This document shows positions 332-49,414 of a stretch of 64,000 nucleotides of DNA, piece by piece. The stretch's first letter is position 1; every line of letters starts with the position of its first letter. Origin of the DNA: Thermonema rossianum DSM 10300 (lineage in GTDB: Bacteria; Bacteroidota; Bacteroidia; Cytophagales; Thermonemataceae). Below the pieces are notes generated by a model. The model was not told the origin of the DNA, ran no database searches, and saw nothing but the letters and a program-made list of their open reading frames with translations. A program made the translations under genes and the position numbers. The stretch is taken from assembly GCF_000426825.1 (NCBI RefSeq), contig NZ_AUGC01000008.1, positions 1 through 64,000 of the forward strand, read 5' to 3'.

Positions 332-985
332 ATGACACGCGTTCAGACATTTACTTTTAATCCTTTTTCAGAAAACACCTATGTTATTTATGACGAGCAA
401 AGCCGCGAAGCGGTGATTGTGGACCCGGGTTGTTGGGAGGCAAGCGAACGGCAGGCGTTGCTCGAATACATACGGAAACAGCGGCTGCAGGTAACGGCTG
501 TGTGGAATACCCATTGCCATTTGGACCACGTATTTGGCAACCGCTGGGCAACGGACACCTTCGGCGTGGGCTTGTGGGCACATGCCAAAGAGCAGTTCAA
601 CCTGGACAACATGGCGATGGTGTGCAGCTATTTTGGCATTCCGCCTTTTGACCCGGGCAGCATAGACCACCATCTGGAAGAGGGCACGCGGCTGACAGTG
701 GGTAGTGCCGTCTTTGAAGTGTTCTTTACGCCGGGGCACTCGCCCGGTCATGTGGTCTTTTACAATGCCGCCGAGGGCTATTGCATCAACGGCGATGTGC
801 TCTTCCGCATGAGCATTGGGCGCACCGACCTGCCGGGCGGCGACCATCTCACGCTTTTGCGTTCTATCCGTGAAAAGTTGTTTGTGCTGCCCGATGATAC
901 GGGGGTATATACCGGGCACGGCGAGCCGACGACCATAGGCTTCGAAAAGCGCCATAATCCGTTTTTGAATGGAGCGTATGATTGA
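332..985 (+). CDS. MBL-fold metallo-hydrolase (glyoxalase II-like)
   Basis: A 217-residue metallo-beta-lactamase fold hydrolase. The metal-binding HxHxDH motif is HCHLDH at residues 61-66, with further ligand candidates H136, D155 (in INGDVLF) and H196 (YTGHGEP). The GRTDLPGGD stretch near 163-171 is typical of small glyoxalase II-like proteins that act on thioesters such as S-lactoylglutathione or related adducts. The true substrate cannot be read from sequence. The frame is open further upstream to base 26, but that part crosses a repeat and does not look like protein, so I start at the ATG where homology begins. It is probably cytosolic because no signal peptide is visible. Confidence 0.85.
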   Translation: MTRVQTFTFNPFSENTYVIYDEQSREAVIVDPGCWEASERQALLEYIRKQRLQVTAVWNTHCHLDHVFGNRWATDTFGVGLWAHAKEQFNLDNMAMVCSYFGIPPFDPGSIDHHLEEGTRLTVGSAVFEVFFTPGHSPGHVVFYNAAEGYCINGDVLFRMSIGRTDLPGGDHLTLLRSIREKLFVLPDDTGVYTGHGEPTTIGFEKRHNPFLNGAYD

Positions 986-1045
986 GGCGCCATTAATGTT
1001 TAATCATAGAAAATAACGCCCCCCAACAAACAGGAAAAAGTTATC

Positions 1046-1157
1046 CTCTGTGGTAAAAAGGAAACACTCACCACGGAGGTCACGGAGTAGCACAGAGGAA
1101 AGAATTACACTCTGCGCCCCTCTGTGTCTCTCTGTGGTGAAGAAAAAGAAACACTCA
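1046..1157. repeat. CACCACGGAG/CTCTGTGGTG inverted repeat with flanking direct repeats
   Basis: The inner inverted repeat runs from caccac at 1069 to gtggtg at 1139 and is rich in cacagagg/cctctgtg words. It is framed by two near-copies of a direct repeat: ctctgtggtaaaaagg then aaacactca (1046-1070), and ctctgtggtgaagaaaaag then aaacactca (1130-1157). It lies between the 3' ends of the MBL gene and the UPF0316 gene. Repeats with this 'ccacagag' wording are known in intergenic regions of many unrelated bacteria. No coding capacity is seen. Confidence 0.75.
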
Positions 1158-1162
1158 TAAAA

Positions 1163-1771
1163 CTATTTCCGTTTGGTGAGCCCACGCAAGATGCTGACCA
1201 CCGGGCTGTGGCTTGCCGTGGTGGGAAAGATGCCTTCCTGTGCGGCACGTACCTGCTCTACGGTGTAGAACGCCTTGGGGTGGTAATGACACAGGCGCTC
1301 GATGAAACGGGGCAGGCGTTTGCGTTCTACTACCGAGAAAAGAATTTTCACATTGCCGCGGCTGCCGCGCGCGTCCACCAGCGTATAGCCGAAGCCTTCG
1401 CTGCTGAGCGCAGCCAACAGTTCGGGGCTCAACTCCGGCAAGATGGCACGCACGATGAGCTTGCCCACCGCCAGCTTGCCTTCGATGAGCATGCCCACGA
1501 AGGTGCCCGTAGCATAGCCGCCGGCATAAGCCACATAAGAAATGGGGTTGTCTATGTATTGAAATATTTGCCCGATAGCCAACAGCCATATGAGCGATTC
1601 GAAGAAACCCAGAAAGGTAGCCGTCTTGCGCTTGCCGTTCATGACAAACATGATGCGCACGGTGGCAATGGATACGTCGCTTACCCTTGCCAGGAAAATC
1701 ATGGCAGGCAACACAAACCAACGAAACTGTTCGGGGCTGATGCCGAAGTGTTCGATAAAGAAAGATTCCAT
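1163..1771 (-). CDS. UPF0316/DUF2179-family membrane protein
   Basis: A 202-residue protein with about three hydrophobic segments in the first 110 residues (around 17-37, 48-68 and 72-90). A soluble alpha/beta C-terminal domain of about 80 residues contains the FGYTLVDARGSRG stretch typical of DUF2179. The family is conserved but has no assigned reaction. The ATG at MESFFIEHFG is preferred over an upstream in-frame start because the preceding 37 residues are basic and lack family character. It lies downstream of tdh on the same strand (136 bases) and its 3' end abuts a palindromic repeat. Confidence 0.75.
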   Translation of the reverse strand: MESFFIEHFGISPEQFRWFVLPAMIFLARVSDVSIATVRIMFVMNGKRKTATFLGFFESLIWLLAIGQIFQYIDNPISYVAYAGGYATGTFVGMLIEGKLAVGKLIVRAILPELSPELLAALSSEGFGYTLVDARGSRGNVKILFSVVERKRLPRFIERLCHYHPKAFYTVEQVRAAQEGIFPTTASHSPVVSILRGLTKRK

Positions 1772-1906
1772 GGCAGTCCGCTTGTTTATACTGCAAAGAA
1801 AGGGCTTTTGTGGGGTGATAACAATTTTTTTAACAGCAAAAAGCTGCCATGCCCGGGCACGGCAGCGCTTCTTTGTTTGCATACAAGGAAGCAGGCGGCT
1901 TGGCTG

Positions 1907-2878
1907 TCAAACAATCTCGCCTTTCTCCATGCCTGCTTTTATGTTGGCAAGCATCACTTCGGTCATGCGGTCCAGGTCATATGCAGGCTGCCAGCCCCAG
2001 TCTTGGCGTGCGGCGCTGTCGTCGATGCTTTGAGGCCAAGAGTCGGCGATTGCCTGCCGGAAGTCGGGTTGATATTCTATGGTGAAATCGGGAATGTGTT
2101 TTTGAATGGAAGCCGCTATTTCGCGTGGGCAGAAGCTCATGCCATGCAGGTTATAGCTGGTGCGCACTTTGATTTTGCCGGCATCGGCATGCATCAGCTC
2201 CAGGGTGGCACGCACGGCATCTTCCATATACATCATGGGCAGGTAGGTGTCTTCTTTCAAGAAACAAACAAAATGCTTTTGGAAGAGCGCCTTGTGATAA
2301 ATCTCTACGGCGTAGTCGGTGGTGCCGCCGCCGGGCATCGACTTATAGCCGATAAGCCCCGGATAGCGCAGGCTGCGCACATCCACACCCCAGCGGTTGA
2401 AATAATACTGGCACCAGTTTTCGCCTGCCTGCTTGCTGATGCCGTAAACGGTGGTGGGTTCCATAGAGCAGTGTTGGGGAGTGTTTTGGCGTGGGGTCGT
2501 AGGACCAAATACCGCAATGGAGCTGGGCCAATATACTTTGGCAATGTTGAACTCTATGGCGGCATCCAGCACATTGAGCAGCCCCTGCATGTTCAGCTGC
2601 CAGGCGTGCTTGGGGTGCTTTTCGCCCGTTGCCGACAACATGGCTGCCAAATGATAAACCTGCGTGATTTTGTGTTTTTGAATCACCTCGGCAAGGGCTT
2701 TGGGGTTGAGTACGTCCAGTTTTTCGAAAAGAGGGAACAGCTGCTTGCGTCTTTCGTCGGGGTCGCGCACGTCGGAAGCCACCACGTGGGCTTCGCCGTA
2801 GATGTCCTGCAAGCCGGCCACCAGCTCGGTGCCCAATTGCCCGGCTGCGCCAATCACCAATATATTATCTTGTGCCAT
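1907..2878 (-). CDS. tdh: L-threonine 3-dehydrogenase, short-chain (SDR) type
   Basis: A 323-residue extended SDR/NAD-dependent epimerase-like enzyme. The NAD-binding motif GAAGQLG is at residues 10-16. The catalytic YGISK (Y145, K149) and an upstream SS pair at 119-120 are present. The protein matches the epimerase-like threonine dehydrogenase family rather than the zinc MDR type. It oxidises L-threonine to 2-amino-3-ketobutyrate, the substrate of the ligase encoded divergently at 3184-4383. This neighbour makes the threonine assignment much more likely than a sugar-nucleotide epimerase. No signal peptide, so cytosolic. Confidence 0.88.
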   Translation of the reverse strand: MAQDNILVIGAAGQLGTELVAGLQDIYGEAHVVASDVRDPDERRKQLFPLFEKLDVLNPKALAEVIQKHKITQVYHLAAMLSATGEKHPKHAWQLNMQGLLNVLDAAIEFNIAKVYWPSSIAVFGPTTPRQNTPQHCSMEPTTVYGISKQAGENWCQYYFNRWGVDVRSLRYPGLIGYKSMPGGGTTDYAVEIYHKALFQKHFVCFLKEDTYLPMMYMEDAVRATLELMHADAGKIKVRTSYNLHGMSFCPREIAASIQKHIPDFTIEYQPDFRQAIADSWPQSIDDSAARQDWGWQPAYDLDRMTEVMLANIKAGMEKGEIV

Positions 2879-40852: not shown

Positions 40853-41893
40853 CTATCCATGATTTAGCGGGAAAAAAGCTGTGAATACACTGCCTTTCGG
40901 CGAGCTTTCAACCAGTTCAATATCGCCACCTATTTCATTGAGCATTTTTTTACAAAGTGCCAGGCCAATCCCCGTGCCTTTTTCGTTTTTGGTACCATAA
41001 GTACTTTTCTTGATACTTAAATCAAAAAGCGTAGGAAGCACTTCTTCTGAAATGCCGCCGCCTTCATCCTTAACACTAACTGCCGCCTTGCCGGGCGCTG
41101 CCAAACCGCTTTGCACATATACCTTCCCACCTTCCGGTGTGAACTTGATGGCGTTATGCAGCAAGTTTCTGATGACAAATTTAGTAATGTGTATATCGGA
41201 GCGCAGTTCTATGTCTTCCGGGCTTGCCCGGTATTCTATTTGAATATTTTTGTGCTCAGCCATTGCGCTTAATAGCTGAATGCTGTGTGTAATGGCCTCG
41301 TGGAGTGAAAAAACGCTTTCTATACTCTCTTCCTTCACCATTTTGGTGAGCCAGTCATTGAGTGCATTCCACAGCTCTACCAGGTACTGTATGTTGTGCT
41401 GCATTTCATGCAGCATGCTTGGGGGAACCAAAGCTTTGATTTCGTCGAGATGCTCCACCAGTTGAATGAATGCCGCAAATGAATTGAGCGGCGACTTCAT
41501 GTCGTGATTGATGGCTCGAAGCAACGTATAAATGTTGTCGAGCTTTTCCTCGGCAGTTTTGGGGTGTTTGGCAGCTCCATTCATAGCATAACTCAGTTGC
41601 AGAGAACGGCGCGTCAATATGCGCTCTATGATTTCTCTTTTTTCTTTCAATATAAGATCCAGCCTCTGTAAAATCAAATTCTCTGCCTCCTCTATAATGC
41701 GGATGGCATTGGTGCTACGAATAGGCTTGTTTCTGTTTCCCCCAAGCACCTGCTTTACGTAAACGTACTGTAGGCCAAGCCTGTCTGCAATATCTTTTTG
41801 GTCACCGCTTTCCAGCAGTGCGCGTACCCATAAGGCATAGCCGGGATCTACTTCGTAACGTTTGGGAGGTATGTTATCAAGACGTTTTTGCAT
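40853..41893 (-). CDS. Cytosolic histidine kinase with N-terminal HTH domain
   Basis: A 346-residue protein. Residues about 20-60 look like a helix-turn-helix (DQKDIADRLGLQYVYVKQVLGG), followed by a helical linker. The histidine kinase core then has H130 (INHDMKSPLNS), N-box N247 (IRNLLHNAIKF), G1 VKDEGGG and G2 GTGIGLAL. There is no membrane segment, no PAS or GAF domain and no receiver domain. DNA binding and kinase activity in one soluble protein are unusual. No response regulator is adjacent; a divergent XRE gene lies 221 bases away. Confidence 0.8.
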   Translation of the reverse strand: MQKRLDNIPPKRYEVDPGYALWVRALLESGDQKDIADRLGLQYVYVKQVLGGNRNKPIRSTNAIRIIEEAENLILQRLDLILKEKREIIERILTRRSLQLSYAMNGAAKHPKTAEEKLDNIYTLLRAINHDMKSPLNSFAAFIQLVEHLDEIKALVPPSMLHEMQHNIQYLVELWNALNDWLTKMVKEESIESVFSLHEAITHSIQLLSAMAEHKNIQIEYRASPEDIELRSDIHITKFVIRNLLHNAIKFTPEGGKVYVQSGLAAPGKAAVSVKDEGGGISEEVLPTLFDLSIKKSTYGTKNEKGTGIGLALCKKMLNEIGGDIELVESSPKGSVFTAFFPLNHG

Positions 41894-42114
41894 AAGGTGA
41901 ATAAGTTTCGTAATGGTGCGCTTTCAGCACTATTTTTAATTGACAAATATTTTTTTACATTTGCATACTAAATAAACCCTAAGATATGCAGTGTTGGTAA
42001 TGATTTGTTTTATTCTCAAAGGTAATAACTGGTATCCAAATTTATTGGAAAATAAGTAAAAAAACAATCTTTTAAAACTATTCGGCAATTTTTGGGAGTA
42101 ACATCACTATTAAA

Positions 42115-42456
42115 ATGGGAAATCGTATGTTTTATTTAGGCAAAAACATTCGCTTTTTGAGAAAAAGAAAAGGTTGGACACAAGAAGAGCTCGCCAACCG
42201 AATCGGAAAAAAGAAAAGCATCATCGGCAATTATGAAAAAGGTGTCACTGAGCCCAACTTGGGCATTTTGATGCGCTTAGGCGAACTGTTTGGGGTGTAT
42301 TGGGCACACTTGGTTGATTGCGATCTGACAGGGGAGCAAGACTCGCCTTTTGTGTCTGACGAAATTCAGCAGCAAATAGGAGTATATCGCCGGCAGATTG
42401 AAAAACTGGAGCAAGAAAAACGTCATTTGGAAGAACAGCTACGTCAATTGAAGTAG
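42115..42456 (+). CDS. XRE-family regulator with C-terminal coiled coil
   Basis: A 113-residue protein. The Cro/C1-type HTH spans about 9-63 (LGKNIRFLRKRKGWTQEELA; IGNYEKGVTEPNLGILMRL). A C-terminal helix (about 85-113, QIEKLEQEKRHLEEQLRQLK) should form a coiled coil for dimerisation. The last 18 bases overlap the 3' end of lpxK on the other strand. Divergent from the HTH-kinase gene, which suggests a shared control region. Confidence 0.88.
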   Translation: MGNRMFYLGKNIRFLRKRKGWTQEELANRIGKKKSIIGNYEKGVTEPNLGILMRLGELFGVYWAHLVDCDLTGEQDSPFVSDEIQQQIGVYRRQIEKLEQEKRHLEEQLRQLK

Positions 42457-45729: not shown

Positions 45730-46215
45730 TTACTGCCGTTTGAGGAAAGCACGCAGCATCCACAAGTCTTTTTCTTTGGCTTTGATGTCGCCGGCCAACA
45801 TGTCGATGGTCCCTTCGTCTTCGGCTTCTTCAGCTGCTTTAAGTGTTTCCCGTTCAAGAGCTACCAAAGCCTGTATGTTTTCAATGAGCGTAGATACAGA
45901 CTCTTTGTCACTGCGCACATTTTTAGCCGCTTGAATGGTGGCATGTTCCATATAATCGGCAAAAGTGTGGAGCGGAGTGCCGCCCAATGTCAAAATGCGC
46001 TCGGCAATGGTATCAATCATCGCCTGTGCGCCGGTGTAAAGCTCTTCAAACTTGGCATGTAAAGTGAAGAAGTTTTCGCCTTCTATGTTCCAATGAAAGC
46101 CACGCAGGTTTTGGTAATAAACTTGATAAGTGGCAAGTAGTGTGTTCAGTTTTTCAATAACAGCCGTAGTTGCTTCGTTTGCCAGTCCGATATTGTTTTC
46201 CAATACTTTTTCCAT
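45730..46215 (-). CDS. dps: Dps-family ferritin-like DNA protection protein
   Basis: A 161-residue four-helix protein. The inter-subunit ferroxidase ligands are in place: H41 (GFHWN), H53, D68 and E72 (MIDTIAER). It forms a 12-mer that oxidises and stores iron using H2O2. The N-terminus is short, without the basic DNA-binding tail of E. coli Dps. Confidence 0.93.
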   Translation of the reverse strand: MEKVLENNIGLANEATTAVIEKLNTLLATYQVYYQNLRGFHWNIEGENFFTLHAKFEELYTGAQAMIDTIAERILTLGGTPLHTFADYMEHATIQAAKNVRSDKESVSTLIENIQALVALERETLKAAEEAEDEGTIDMLAGDIKAKEKDLWMLRAFLKRQ

Positions 46216-47064: not shown

Positions 47065-48183
47065 TTAATCACCGTCGCCACTGTCGTAGGTGATATACAG
47101 CCCCAACAAGGAACTCATGTCACTTTTGAAATAGCGCGTATGCTTGAGCATTTCGTTGTGGAGCGCTTCTACAGCTTGATACTGTGTGTTGATGAGTGTG
47201 GAGAGTCTTGTTTGCTTGTCCAGTGCATCCAGCTTTTGATAAATAATTGACAGTTGCGCTTCGGTATTGTCCGACAACTCTTTGCCGCCCGGTACAGCCA
47301 GCAGGTAGTCCTGAAAGCCCAAGCCGTCTTGCCCGTCGGCGCCTACGCCCCGCCAAATATTCTCTATGGCTTTCATGTTGGCACGAATCATATCCAGCGA
47401 TATGCCGCTGTAGTATGCCTCTACGTACATAGGTGCGGGTGAGGTTAGTGGGGCTCTTTTTCCCAATGGAATGCCCAGTTTGAAGTTTTTGATGCGTTCA
47501 TAGCCCAGGTTGAATTGATTGAACAGGAGAGTAAGGGAACTGCCGGCATCCGTGCCGTCGTTGGCAATGAACGAGGCTTTGGCTTCGAGCCATCGGTTAC
47601 GGCTCTGCTCTATCTTAGCCAGCAGGTGGTCTGCTACTGCTTTTAAGTACAAGCCACGCTTGTTGTCATTGGTAAAAGCATCAACAATGGCTTGTTGGTT
47701 GCCGTCGGTGCGAAAGAGCAGGTAGTCCATTGCCAAAAAGCCACGTGTATCCCGGTTGAAGTTGGCAAAGCTGTAATCCCCTTGACTGATGTATTGCTCA
47801 ATCAGTGCACTATCTACCGGAAATGCGCCTATTTCTTCGAATAAACTTTTATCGAGTGTATTGGGCTCAATCAGAAATTCGAAGTTATACATGTTGGCAG
47901 ACTGCCACGTGGTGTAGGTTTGTATCCATTGCGTTTGCAAGGCTTCGAGTGTGCCAAGCGAGGGCGCATTCACAAAGTTTTGTGTAGCGGCTTGCAACGC
48001 TTTGGCTTCGCTATGCAGGCTGTCAAAAGCAGGGCTTATCAAATTGTTGGCCACATTTTCCAGCAAGCCCCGCCGGTCAAAATTCTGCGGACTGTTCTCT
48101 TTTTTCGAATTGCAGGCAGTAAGTCCAAGCAAGTAGGCAAGCACTATGATTGCGAGGCTTATTTGTTGGGGAAACTTTTTCAT
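47065..48183 (-). CDS. Imelysin-family lipoprotein
   Basis: A 372-residue lipoprotein (lipobox LTAC, Cys24) of the imelysin-like COG3489 group, mostly helical. The conserved family region here reads GFLAMDYLLFRTD (about 130-142) in place of GxHxxEyLL, so the presumed metal site is altered. Related proteins are linked to iron uptake, often beside TonB receptors. Preceded by the DUF4856 gene, 109 bases apart with an intervening hairpin. Confidence 0.82.
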   Translation of the reverse strand: MKKFPQQISLAIIVLAYLLGLTACNSKKENSPQNFDRRGLLENVANNLISPAFDSLHSEAKALQAATQNFVNAPSLGTLEALQTQWIQTYTTWQSANMYNFEFLIEPNTLDKSLFEEIGAFPVDSALIEQYISQGDYSFANFNRDTRGFLAMDYLLFRTDGNQQAIVDAFTNDNKRGLYLKAVADHLLAKIEQSRNRWLEAKASFIANDGTDAGSSLTLLFNQFNLGYERIKNFKLGIPLGKRAPLTSPAPMYVEAYYSGISLDMIRANMKAIENIWRGVGADGQDGLGFQDYLLAVPGGKELSDNTEAQLSIIYQKLDALDKQTRLSTLINTQYQAVEALHNEMLKHTRYFKSDMSSLLGLYITYDSGDGD

Positions 48184-48236
48184 GAGCAGGTCGTTTTATT
48201 CGTCTTTAAGGCAAAGATATGTAAAATCAAAATGCA

Positions 48237-48266
48237 CCAAAGGCATGCTATAAAGCACGCCTTTGG
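48237..48266 (-). terminator. Hairpin between DUF4856 and imelysin genes
   Basis: A 13-bp stem with one mismatch (ccaaaggcatgct / agcacgcctttgg) and a 4-base loop. The T tract after it on the minus strand is weak (tgcatttt), so it may be an attenuator or processing site rather than a full terminator. Confidence 0.5.
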
Positions 48267-48292
48267 CAAGCGGTGAAAAAGAGCGGAGAAAA

Positions 48293-49414
48293 CTATCTGC
48301 CTTGCTCTGCCACCCAGTCTTTTTTGAAGTCTTCCAAGTCTGCATCGGTGAAGCCATATACTTCTTTTACTTTGTTGATGGCTTCGGTCAGCTTGCCTAC
48401 CTGGTTAAAGGTGTCGGTTACAAAGAGGTAAGCCGAAGCTTCGCCCTGTGCAGGTGCTTTCAATATGTTCAATATTTCATCAATTTGCGCATCGGTAATG
48501 GTGCGTGCATCTTGAGGCAATTGGCGCCATCCGTGCAAGAAACCAACTGCTTCGGCATAAGAGTGAAGGGCACTTGCCAAGTCACTGTCCGAAGGATTGG
48601 TGGCAGTCAGCTTGCTTTGCGCGCTGTACAGGTAGTTGATGACAGTGGCTGCACAAGATTTTTCCCAGTTGGTCAAATAAACTTTCAGGGCTGCACGCAA
48701 CTCCGCATCATACGCTTTGCCTGCTTTTACAGCCGCTTGGGCAGTTAACAAAGCATTTTTAATGTTGGTATAGAAACCATTGCCGTCGTTTTTGTCACGC
48801 TTGGCAGCGTACTTGGCAGCATAGCTGTCAGGGTGCTCGTGTTTGCTTCCGTCACTGCTATTGGGGAAAGAAGGATGGGCGCCAAAAATGGCTACCAGAC
48901 GGTCAATATCGGCAGCAGTCAGTTCGGTTTTTTGGGTGATACTGTAAGCATGGTTGAAAAGCGCTGCTTCAAACAGACCTTTTTCAATCAGTTCTATCAA
49001 TTCCAAACCACCTTCTTCAAACAGACGTCCACCGAAGAAACCGCCTTTGCCATTCTGAGCTTTGCCTTCTGTTTTCATGTCGTAGGCGCCCCCTGTACTG
49101 GCATCTGCCACTTCTTTCAAGTAGTTGAGCACTTGTGTGTTGTAGTAAGCAGAGGTAGCCGCCTGTAAATCACTTCCTTCATAAATAGCTTTTAAGCTTG
49201 CTTCATCTAATGGATTGCTTTCCGAAGCAGCTTTGATGGCTGCTTTCAGGGCATCCAAGTCTTCCAAGATGGCTTTTTCGGCAGCCACATTGGCGTCGTA
49301 ATTGGCAGACTCATAAGTAGAGGGCACGTTCAAAGGCGCCTTCTCATCGTCCTTTTTATTACATGCGCTCAATCCCAAAACTGTGATGCTTGCGGCAAGG
49401 AGAACCTTTCTCAT
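48293..49414 (-). CDS. DUF4856-family lipoprotein
   Basis: A 373-residue lipoprotein (lipobox LSAC, Cys18). Helical, with family-typical stretches VPSTYESANYD, FNHAYSI and GFLHGWRQLP. DUF4856 proteins often sit next to imelysin-like lipoproteins and TonB-dependent receptors in Bacteroidota, which suggests a role in metal or iron acquisition. No receptor gene follows here. Confidence 0.85.
   Translation of the reverse strand: MRKVLLAASITVLGLSACNKKDDEKAPLNVPSTYESANYDANVAAEKAILEDLDALKAAIKAASESNPLDEASLKAIYEGSDLQAATSAYYNTQVLNYLKEVADASTGGAYDMKTEGKAQNGKGGFFGGRLFEEGGLELIELIEKGLFEAALFNHAYSITQKTELTAADIDRLVAIFGAHPSFPNSSDGSKHEHPDSYAAKYAAKRDKNDGNGFYTNIKNALLTAQAAVKAGKAYDAELRAALKVYLTNWEKSCAATVINYLYSAQSKLTATNPSDSDLASALHSYAEAVGFLHGWRQLPQDARTITDAQIDEILNILKAPAQGEASAYLFVTDTFNQVGKLTEAINKVKEVYGFTDADLEDFKKDWVAEQGR

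Follow-up and report, generated by a model that had tools for sequence, protein, structure and literature searches.

The decision circuit of phage Mu is built around the genes c and ner, which are divergent and under mutual control; ner starts the early transcript, and both genes gate the decision (PMC3820752 and PMC11310862). The master repressor of the Bacteroides hankyphage was demonstrated to be RepC-HP, whose silencing induces the phage (PMC12135933), and the Flavobacterium transposable prophage fF4 has a putative repressor, short ORFs of unassigned function and then a transposase (PMC7761591). The locus described here lies in the window (the whole stretch of DNA analysed, 64,000 nucleotides of Thermonema rossianum DSM 10300) and is, with a probability of roughly 60%, a captured c/ner-type lysis/lysogeny switch of Mu-like phages, the helix-turn-helix (HTH) arm of which was fused to a histidine kinase. 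It has in common with the Mu switch the divergent genes for a repressor and a small HTH, predicted facing control elements in one common region, and a small HTH in the first early position. It differs from Mu in the fusion of the HTH arm to a histidine kinase, in the HTH itself, which has no Pfam match and was not recovered as a member of the Ner family, and in its gene content: the divergent layout of a transposable-phage switch is present, and transposase A/B downstream is absent.

In hankyphage p00 (BK010646), itself transposable, the repressor gene occupies positions 1010-1429 (minus strand), a 66-aa HTH gene follows at 1876-2076 (plus strand), and MuA begins at 2303. RepC-HP resembles the XRE protein of the window, both having a coiled-coil-like tail, and the 66-aa HTH, encoded between repC and MuA, is a hit of the small-HTH profile (9.4e-7; six proteins searched). 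The predicted early -7 element of p00 has a palindrome immediately next to it. Unlike the window locus, p00 is a complete phage, its HTH is unfused, and an extra 63-aa ORF and a tRNA-Arg gene separate repC from the HTH gene. The tRNA-Arg (CCT) was detected by ARAGORN at 1767-1850 (L098); the features of the record have no entry there.

The two divergent ORFs of the window are spaced by exactly 221 bp (Table 1). The sequence-only reading had described a divergent XRE gene with a coiled coil across a 221-base region, and the ORFs, their spacing and a coiled-coil-like tail were all confirmed. It had paired the two genes from their position only; an HTH/XRE pair with a candidate palindromic operator is also kept in a different genus. 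It missed what we consider the best reading of the pair, a repressor and counter-repressor of a transposable phage. The subtilase and LpxK genes that flank the pair are kept around it in a second species of the genus (G001), and no transposase adjoins the pair in either genome, the neighbouring gene being the subtilase. The XRE and LpxK genes overlap tail-to-tail by 18 bp (42439-42456), likewise in G001 (L012). Elsewhere in the window, translations inspected by eye place a Dps-like ORF (45730-46215) near two tandem imelysin-like lipoprotein ORFs (47065-49414).

Table 1. Positions in the window of the features of the HTH-kinase/XRE locus.
Feature	Positions	Strand	Basis
HTH-histidine kinase fusion gene	40853..41893	-	ORF, ATG start, 346 aa; Pfam HATPase_c; orthologue in G001
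Catalytic ATP-binding domain, residues 191-346	40856..41323	-	N and G boxes intact
Dimerisation/phosphoacceptor (HisKA-like) domain, residues 112-190, H130	41324..41560	-	72/79 identical to G001
Long helix and linker, residues 61-111	41561..41713	-	AlphaFold2 helix 60-105; same stretch is the C-terminus of the stand-alone 107-aa homologue (alignment with L013)
HTH, residues 16-60; recognition helix about 43-50 (YVYVKQ)	41714..41848	-	Recognition helix identical in G000, G001 and G003
Intergenic control region common to both genes, 221 bp	41894..42114	none	
TACATTTG, predicted -7 element of XRE promoter, facing the kinase promoter	41956..41963	+	Kept in G001
Palindrome TCCAAATTTATTGGA, proposed operator	42035..42049	none	Identical in G001; one change in G003
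TAAATTTG, predicted -7 element of kinase promoter, within the palindrome	42037..42044	-	TAnnTTTG consensus
XRE repressor-like protein, coiled-coil-like tail	42115..42456	+	ORF, 113 aa; Pfam HTH_3 1.3e-14; resembles RepC-HP of hankyphage

The kinase core is complete, as the sequence-only reading had stated from H130, N247 and the GTGIGLAL motif. The H-box HDMKSPL, holding H130, is identical in G001, and the N-box NLLHNAIKF with N247, the D276-x-G-x-G box (DEGGG) and the G2 box GTGIGLAL are intact in both species. Pfam HATPase_c matches at E 8.7e-21 (74.9 bits, cut-off 26.4), HisKA is below threshold (15.8 bits, cut-off 26.9), and Pfam finds no sensor domain, again in agreement with the sequence-only reading. 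The kinase and its G001 orthologue are identical in 276 of 346 residues (80%), with dN/dS of about 0.07 overall and 0.04 in the HTH, values that are rough because dS is high; the phosphoacceptor domain is the most conserved part of the protein and the slowest to change. Being conserved under purifying selection in a second species, this is not a chance ORF. A response regulator next to the kinase had been reported missing, and indeed none adjoins it: the 18 receiver domains of the genome (2.95 Mb, 24 contigs), several of them parts of short ORFs, all lie outside this 162-kb contig. A Shinella plasmid match covering 93% of the kinase was rejected, as it has no related HTH. A role in known anti-phage defence found no support either, since PADLOC gave 0 families for the kinase and generic-looking HTH models only for the XRE protein.

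A HisKA/HATPase core with no adjacent response regulator is also what orphan cytoplasmic HisKA kinases have; here, unlike in those, an N-terminal HTH replaces the sensor, and the gene has its own candidate operator and a repressor partner. The hybrid two-component systems of Bacteroides combine a periplasmic sensor with a receiver and a C-terminal AraC-type HTH. They likewise unite kinase and DNA-binding domain in one protein, whereas the window protein has an N-terminal phage-type HTH and no receiver. A mostly surface-level screen of the open full-text literature found no histidine kinase fused to a phage Ner-type HTH.

Residues 20-60 of the kinase had been read as an HTH of the Cro/C1 kind; the HTH stands, and its assignment to Cro/C1 does not. 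A single-sequence AlphaFold2 model of residues 1-106 has helices at 17-29, 32-39 and 43-50 and a long helix at 60-105; with pLDDT of only about 47-64 in the HTH part, and a mean of 36 for a model of the whole kinase, it is good for helix boundaries alone. PDB matches of the modelled HTH were not significant (best E 0.70). Because of this and the low confidence, the HTH claim does not rest on the model as such; that the N-terminus is an HTH, nearer to the LacI type than to Cro/C1, is supported by the predicted helices taken together with profile similarity and small stand-alone homologues. In hhalign the N-terminus aligned with LacI-type HTHs at a probability of 94.5 (at most 0.4 for five column-shuffled controls), a supportive rather than independent value since the LacI-type set was itself recruited by profile search, and with XRE alignments at 0.6 and 35. 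With E allowed up to 5, the N-terminus on its own matched 0 Pfam families; PHROGs offered nothing better than E 0.007, in matches of unassigned function, and these searches did not place the domain in the Mu Ner family. The helix breaks near residues 106-111, at a proline in NGAAKHPK, which makes a rigid coil from the HTH to the kinase unlikely.

We searched for the N-terminal domain in 59 genomes, those of the window (G000) and its relatives. The full HTH-kinase fusion with a divergent XRE gene and the same neighbours is present in G001. In another genus of the same family (G003) the domain makes up a whole 107-aa protein (48% identity over 83 residues), and the divergent gene beside it encodes an XRE protein of 126 aa; in another family (G052) the domain also stands alone and divergent from an XRE gene, with a Mu-type transposase directly after it. 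The pair conserved in G001 and G003, together with the palindrome, rules out that kinase and XRE genes lie side by side by chance. The matches in G004, G005 and G007 were to other kinases and covered just their helix and phosphoacceptor part. Past G003 and G052, single-genome searches pick up small-HTH relatives only weakly (E about 1e-3 to 1e-8). Profile searches were extended to 390 genomes of the order, 395 of the phylum (run twice with the same sampling settings), 395 of the class, and 145 and 147 genomes related to two other centres, these two sets being largely the same; since genomes recur between searches, the counts cannot be summed. Among the best 30 loci of each search, and within its sensitivity, there was no other HTH-kinase fusion. 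In the genomes examined the fusion is seen only in two species of this genus, and the kinase is a genus-specific addition to the pair, the nearest other genus having the HTH alone. Of the conservation that the sequence-only reading had asked about, that of the gene pair extends from G001 to another genus (G003) and that of the fusion does not.

A scan of viral contigs gave no close relatives, the HTH of G003 had no tblastn match in a named phage collection, and a broader genome-contig search returned only kinases without the N-terminal domain. LacI-family matches of the profile searches were rejected as relatives, as were the 88-96 aa HTHs of L033, L034, L036 and L040, which adjoin a DUF2007/USP-like gene. 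These four loci have a conserved GIH-EPGPDGGLV-DDTT tail, a neighbour that reads as DUF2007/universal-stress-like, and no linked XRE gene.

The intergenic regions of G000, G001 and G003 have in common the sequence TCCAAAT[T/A]TATTGGAAAA. The -7 element of Bacteroidota promoters is TAnnTTTG. The conserved palindrome overlaps a predicted -7 element in all three genomes; as this TAnnTTTG is on the minus strand, the palindrome is placed on the predicted kinase/HTH promoter, which in the window has ATTG 20 bases upstream, as read from the sequence. The -7 element of the XRE promoter has no perfect match in G003. Both kinds of -7 element occur together in 4-6% of shuffles, so that the reading of two facing promoters is suggestive only. 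The motif TCCAA-N5-TTGGA has one occurrence in the window (0.11 expected), two in the complete genome and three in G001, and only this site is placed identically in both. G003 has 35 such sites and 16 of a reversed-pattern control, so the motif is not specific in this AT-rich genome. A regulon was rejected for the window genome, where the palindrome occurs only twice; this rejection does not extend to G003. The recognition segments of the HTH and XRE proteins are the same in G000, G001 and G003, except for one conservative change in the XRE protein of G003; in G052 both segments differ, and so does the palindrome. Such joint variation is the pattern expected if the two proteins read the operator. 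The sequence-only suggestion of a DNA-binding kinase that acts on its own control region is in keeping with these observations, and the kinase probably does so.

The XRE protein belongs to the Cro/C1 (XRE) class (Pfam HTH_3, 54.4 bits, cut-off 23). RepC-HP matches the profile of the window XRE protein and its relatives at E 5.3e-18 in a search of six hankyphage p00 proteins, and the two proteins are identical in 32 of 97 positions (33%, z about 20-22). S24 peptidase domains are found on the phage-linked repressors L106, L115 and L117, and on L107; none was shown on the solitary-pair repressors of G000 and of genus g7.

The HTHs of G000, G001, G003 and G052 are similar to transposase-linked HTHs in profile-profile comparison (probability 97.5, E 6.9e-12). 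In several genomes, a small HTH that fits this profile is flanked by a divergent XRE gene on one side and a DDE transposase on the other. The genes downstream of small HTHs match Pfam rve or DDE_2 (Mu transposase) below curated cut-offs, and a tblastn search with one of them matched 160 phage records, among them many that carry the annotation transposase or transposase A. The 28 small-HTH loci include 18 with a divergent XRE gene, 12 with a downstream Mu-type transposase and 11 with both, counts in which the members used to build the transposase and XRE profiles match by construction; outside the building set are L014 (G052), L039, L106, L115 and L117 for the transposase profile, and L025, L105, L106, L107, L115, L117 and, from the second set, L120 for the XRE profile. 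No divergent XRE gene is present in the other 10 (L026, which has a transposase, L032, L033, L034, L036, L040, L043, L047, L104 and L110). Fourteen long-ORF loci were first set aside as a control; a divergent XRE gene was counted in 3, all of them HTH-PAS fusions (L109, L111 and L112), and in none of the remaining 11. A second set of long-ORF, mostly LacI-type matches from the same type of search had none in 24. In L025 (843-1352), a Mu-like element has an antirepressor-like ORF and a small ORF between the XRE and small-HTH genes.

The HTH-PAS fusion was seen in three of the four genomes of genus g7 covered, G045 (L109), G030 (L111) and G010 (L112), and not in G097. The proteins are 446-478 aa long, begin with a weakly matching small HTH (E 1.6e-4 to 4.9e-4 per genome) and continue into PAS domains (PAS_4, E 1e-16 to 2e-18). 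Their genes are divergent from that of a 125-aa XRE/coiled-coil-like protein, which over its length has 27-34 of about 107 positions identical to the window XRE protein and RepC-HP (z 13-19). The palindrome between the two genes is TTGTTCC-N7-GGGAACAA or near it in two genomes and degenerate in the third. As in the window, the g7 pairs combine an N-terminal small HTH, a divergent XRE protein with a coiled-coil-like tail and a conserved palindrome, with no transposase seen; unlike in the window, they have PAS in place of the kinase and a different operator sequence. In them, the same small-HTH arm seems to have been joined to a signalling module a second time, independently. In L105, an XRE-like repressor (735-1370, minus strand) has a PAS match (6.1e-6) and is divergent from a 62-aa small HTH (1474-1662, plus strand). 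In this locus the repressor seems to carry the sensor. The solitary pairs look as if their input module had shifted to the HTH arm.

We propose that the XRE protein is the repressor arm of a captured switch, and that the other arm is the small HTH in the position of Ner, which in phages stands alone ahead of the transposase and here would be joined through its C-terminal helix to the kinase core. A dimer of the HTH-kinase, of the XRE protein, or both would bind the palindrome that overlaps the kinase promoter, and, with the two promoters facing one another, each protein would regulate the expression of its own gene and of its partner's. A cytoplasmic signal may set the switch, the state of the switch may set the phosphorylation of a response regulator encoded elsewhere, or both. 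The fusion would allow such coupling because kinase domains change conformation with ATP, partner and phosphorylation state. The window pair has no visible phage gene next to it, so the suggested phage origin rests on homology and layout. Capture from phage to cell is favoured by the many phage-linked and few solitary forms; phages could also have taken the pair from cells. More tentatively, with odds somewhat short of even, cells of this phylum may have captured the transposable-phage switch repeatedly and attached signalling modules to its counter-repressor arm, a kinase here and PAS in g7, with L105 carrying PAS on the repressor arm.

The locus could instead hold a chromosomal kinase whose HTH only autoregulates its gene, the XRE protein being an ordinary local repressor with neither phage ancestry nor switching. 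Such a kinase would suit a locus that keeps its chromosomal position and its neighbours (subtilase, LpxK) in both species, lacks a transposase and has a palindrome effectively unique to it. We nevertheless regard this explanation as unlikely, given what the locus has in common with the stand-alone HTH/XRE pair and with the phage pairs: the layout, similar profiles, and a palindrome on or next to the predicted early promoter.

Two further explanations concern what the kinase core does. The HTH might be a docking device that holds the kinase at a single DNA site; occupancy of the DNA would then be the signal that governs kinase activity, and an unlinked response regulator would deliver the output. 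A complete core with no sensor domain, the 18 receiver domains elsewhere in the genome, several of them in short ORFs, and the phosphoacceptor domain as the best conserved part are compatible with this; with essentially one palindrome per genome, however, few kinase molecules would be bound at once, and no partner is known, so that we judge the idea improbable. Still less probable is a core that serves only as an ATP/ADP-responsive or partner-binding dimeriser, tuning DNA binding and phosphorylating no regulator. The missing linked regulator agrees with it, and so does the HTH arm of g7, which carries PAS and no kinase, the common trait of the fusions being an input module on the DNA-binding arm; but all catalytic motifs and the phosphoacceptor histidine are kept in both species, and the phosphoacceptor domain is the slowest to change.

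If the reading as a captured switch is correct, a phage decision circuit has been rewired to become part of the two-component signalling of a bacterium. The small HTH can be compared in its stand-alone, kinase-fused and PAS-fused forms, and two genes with one operator make a compact system for asking if a histidine kinase may control its own DNA binding or be controlled by it. The locus also lets one ask whether captured phage switches remain bistable. Repeated capture, if true, would provide heritable on/off switches under signal control, with a kinase that has phage-type DNA binding as its input or its output.
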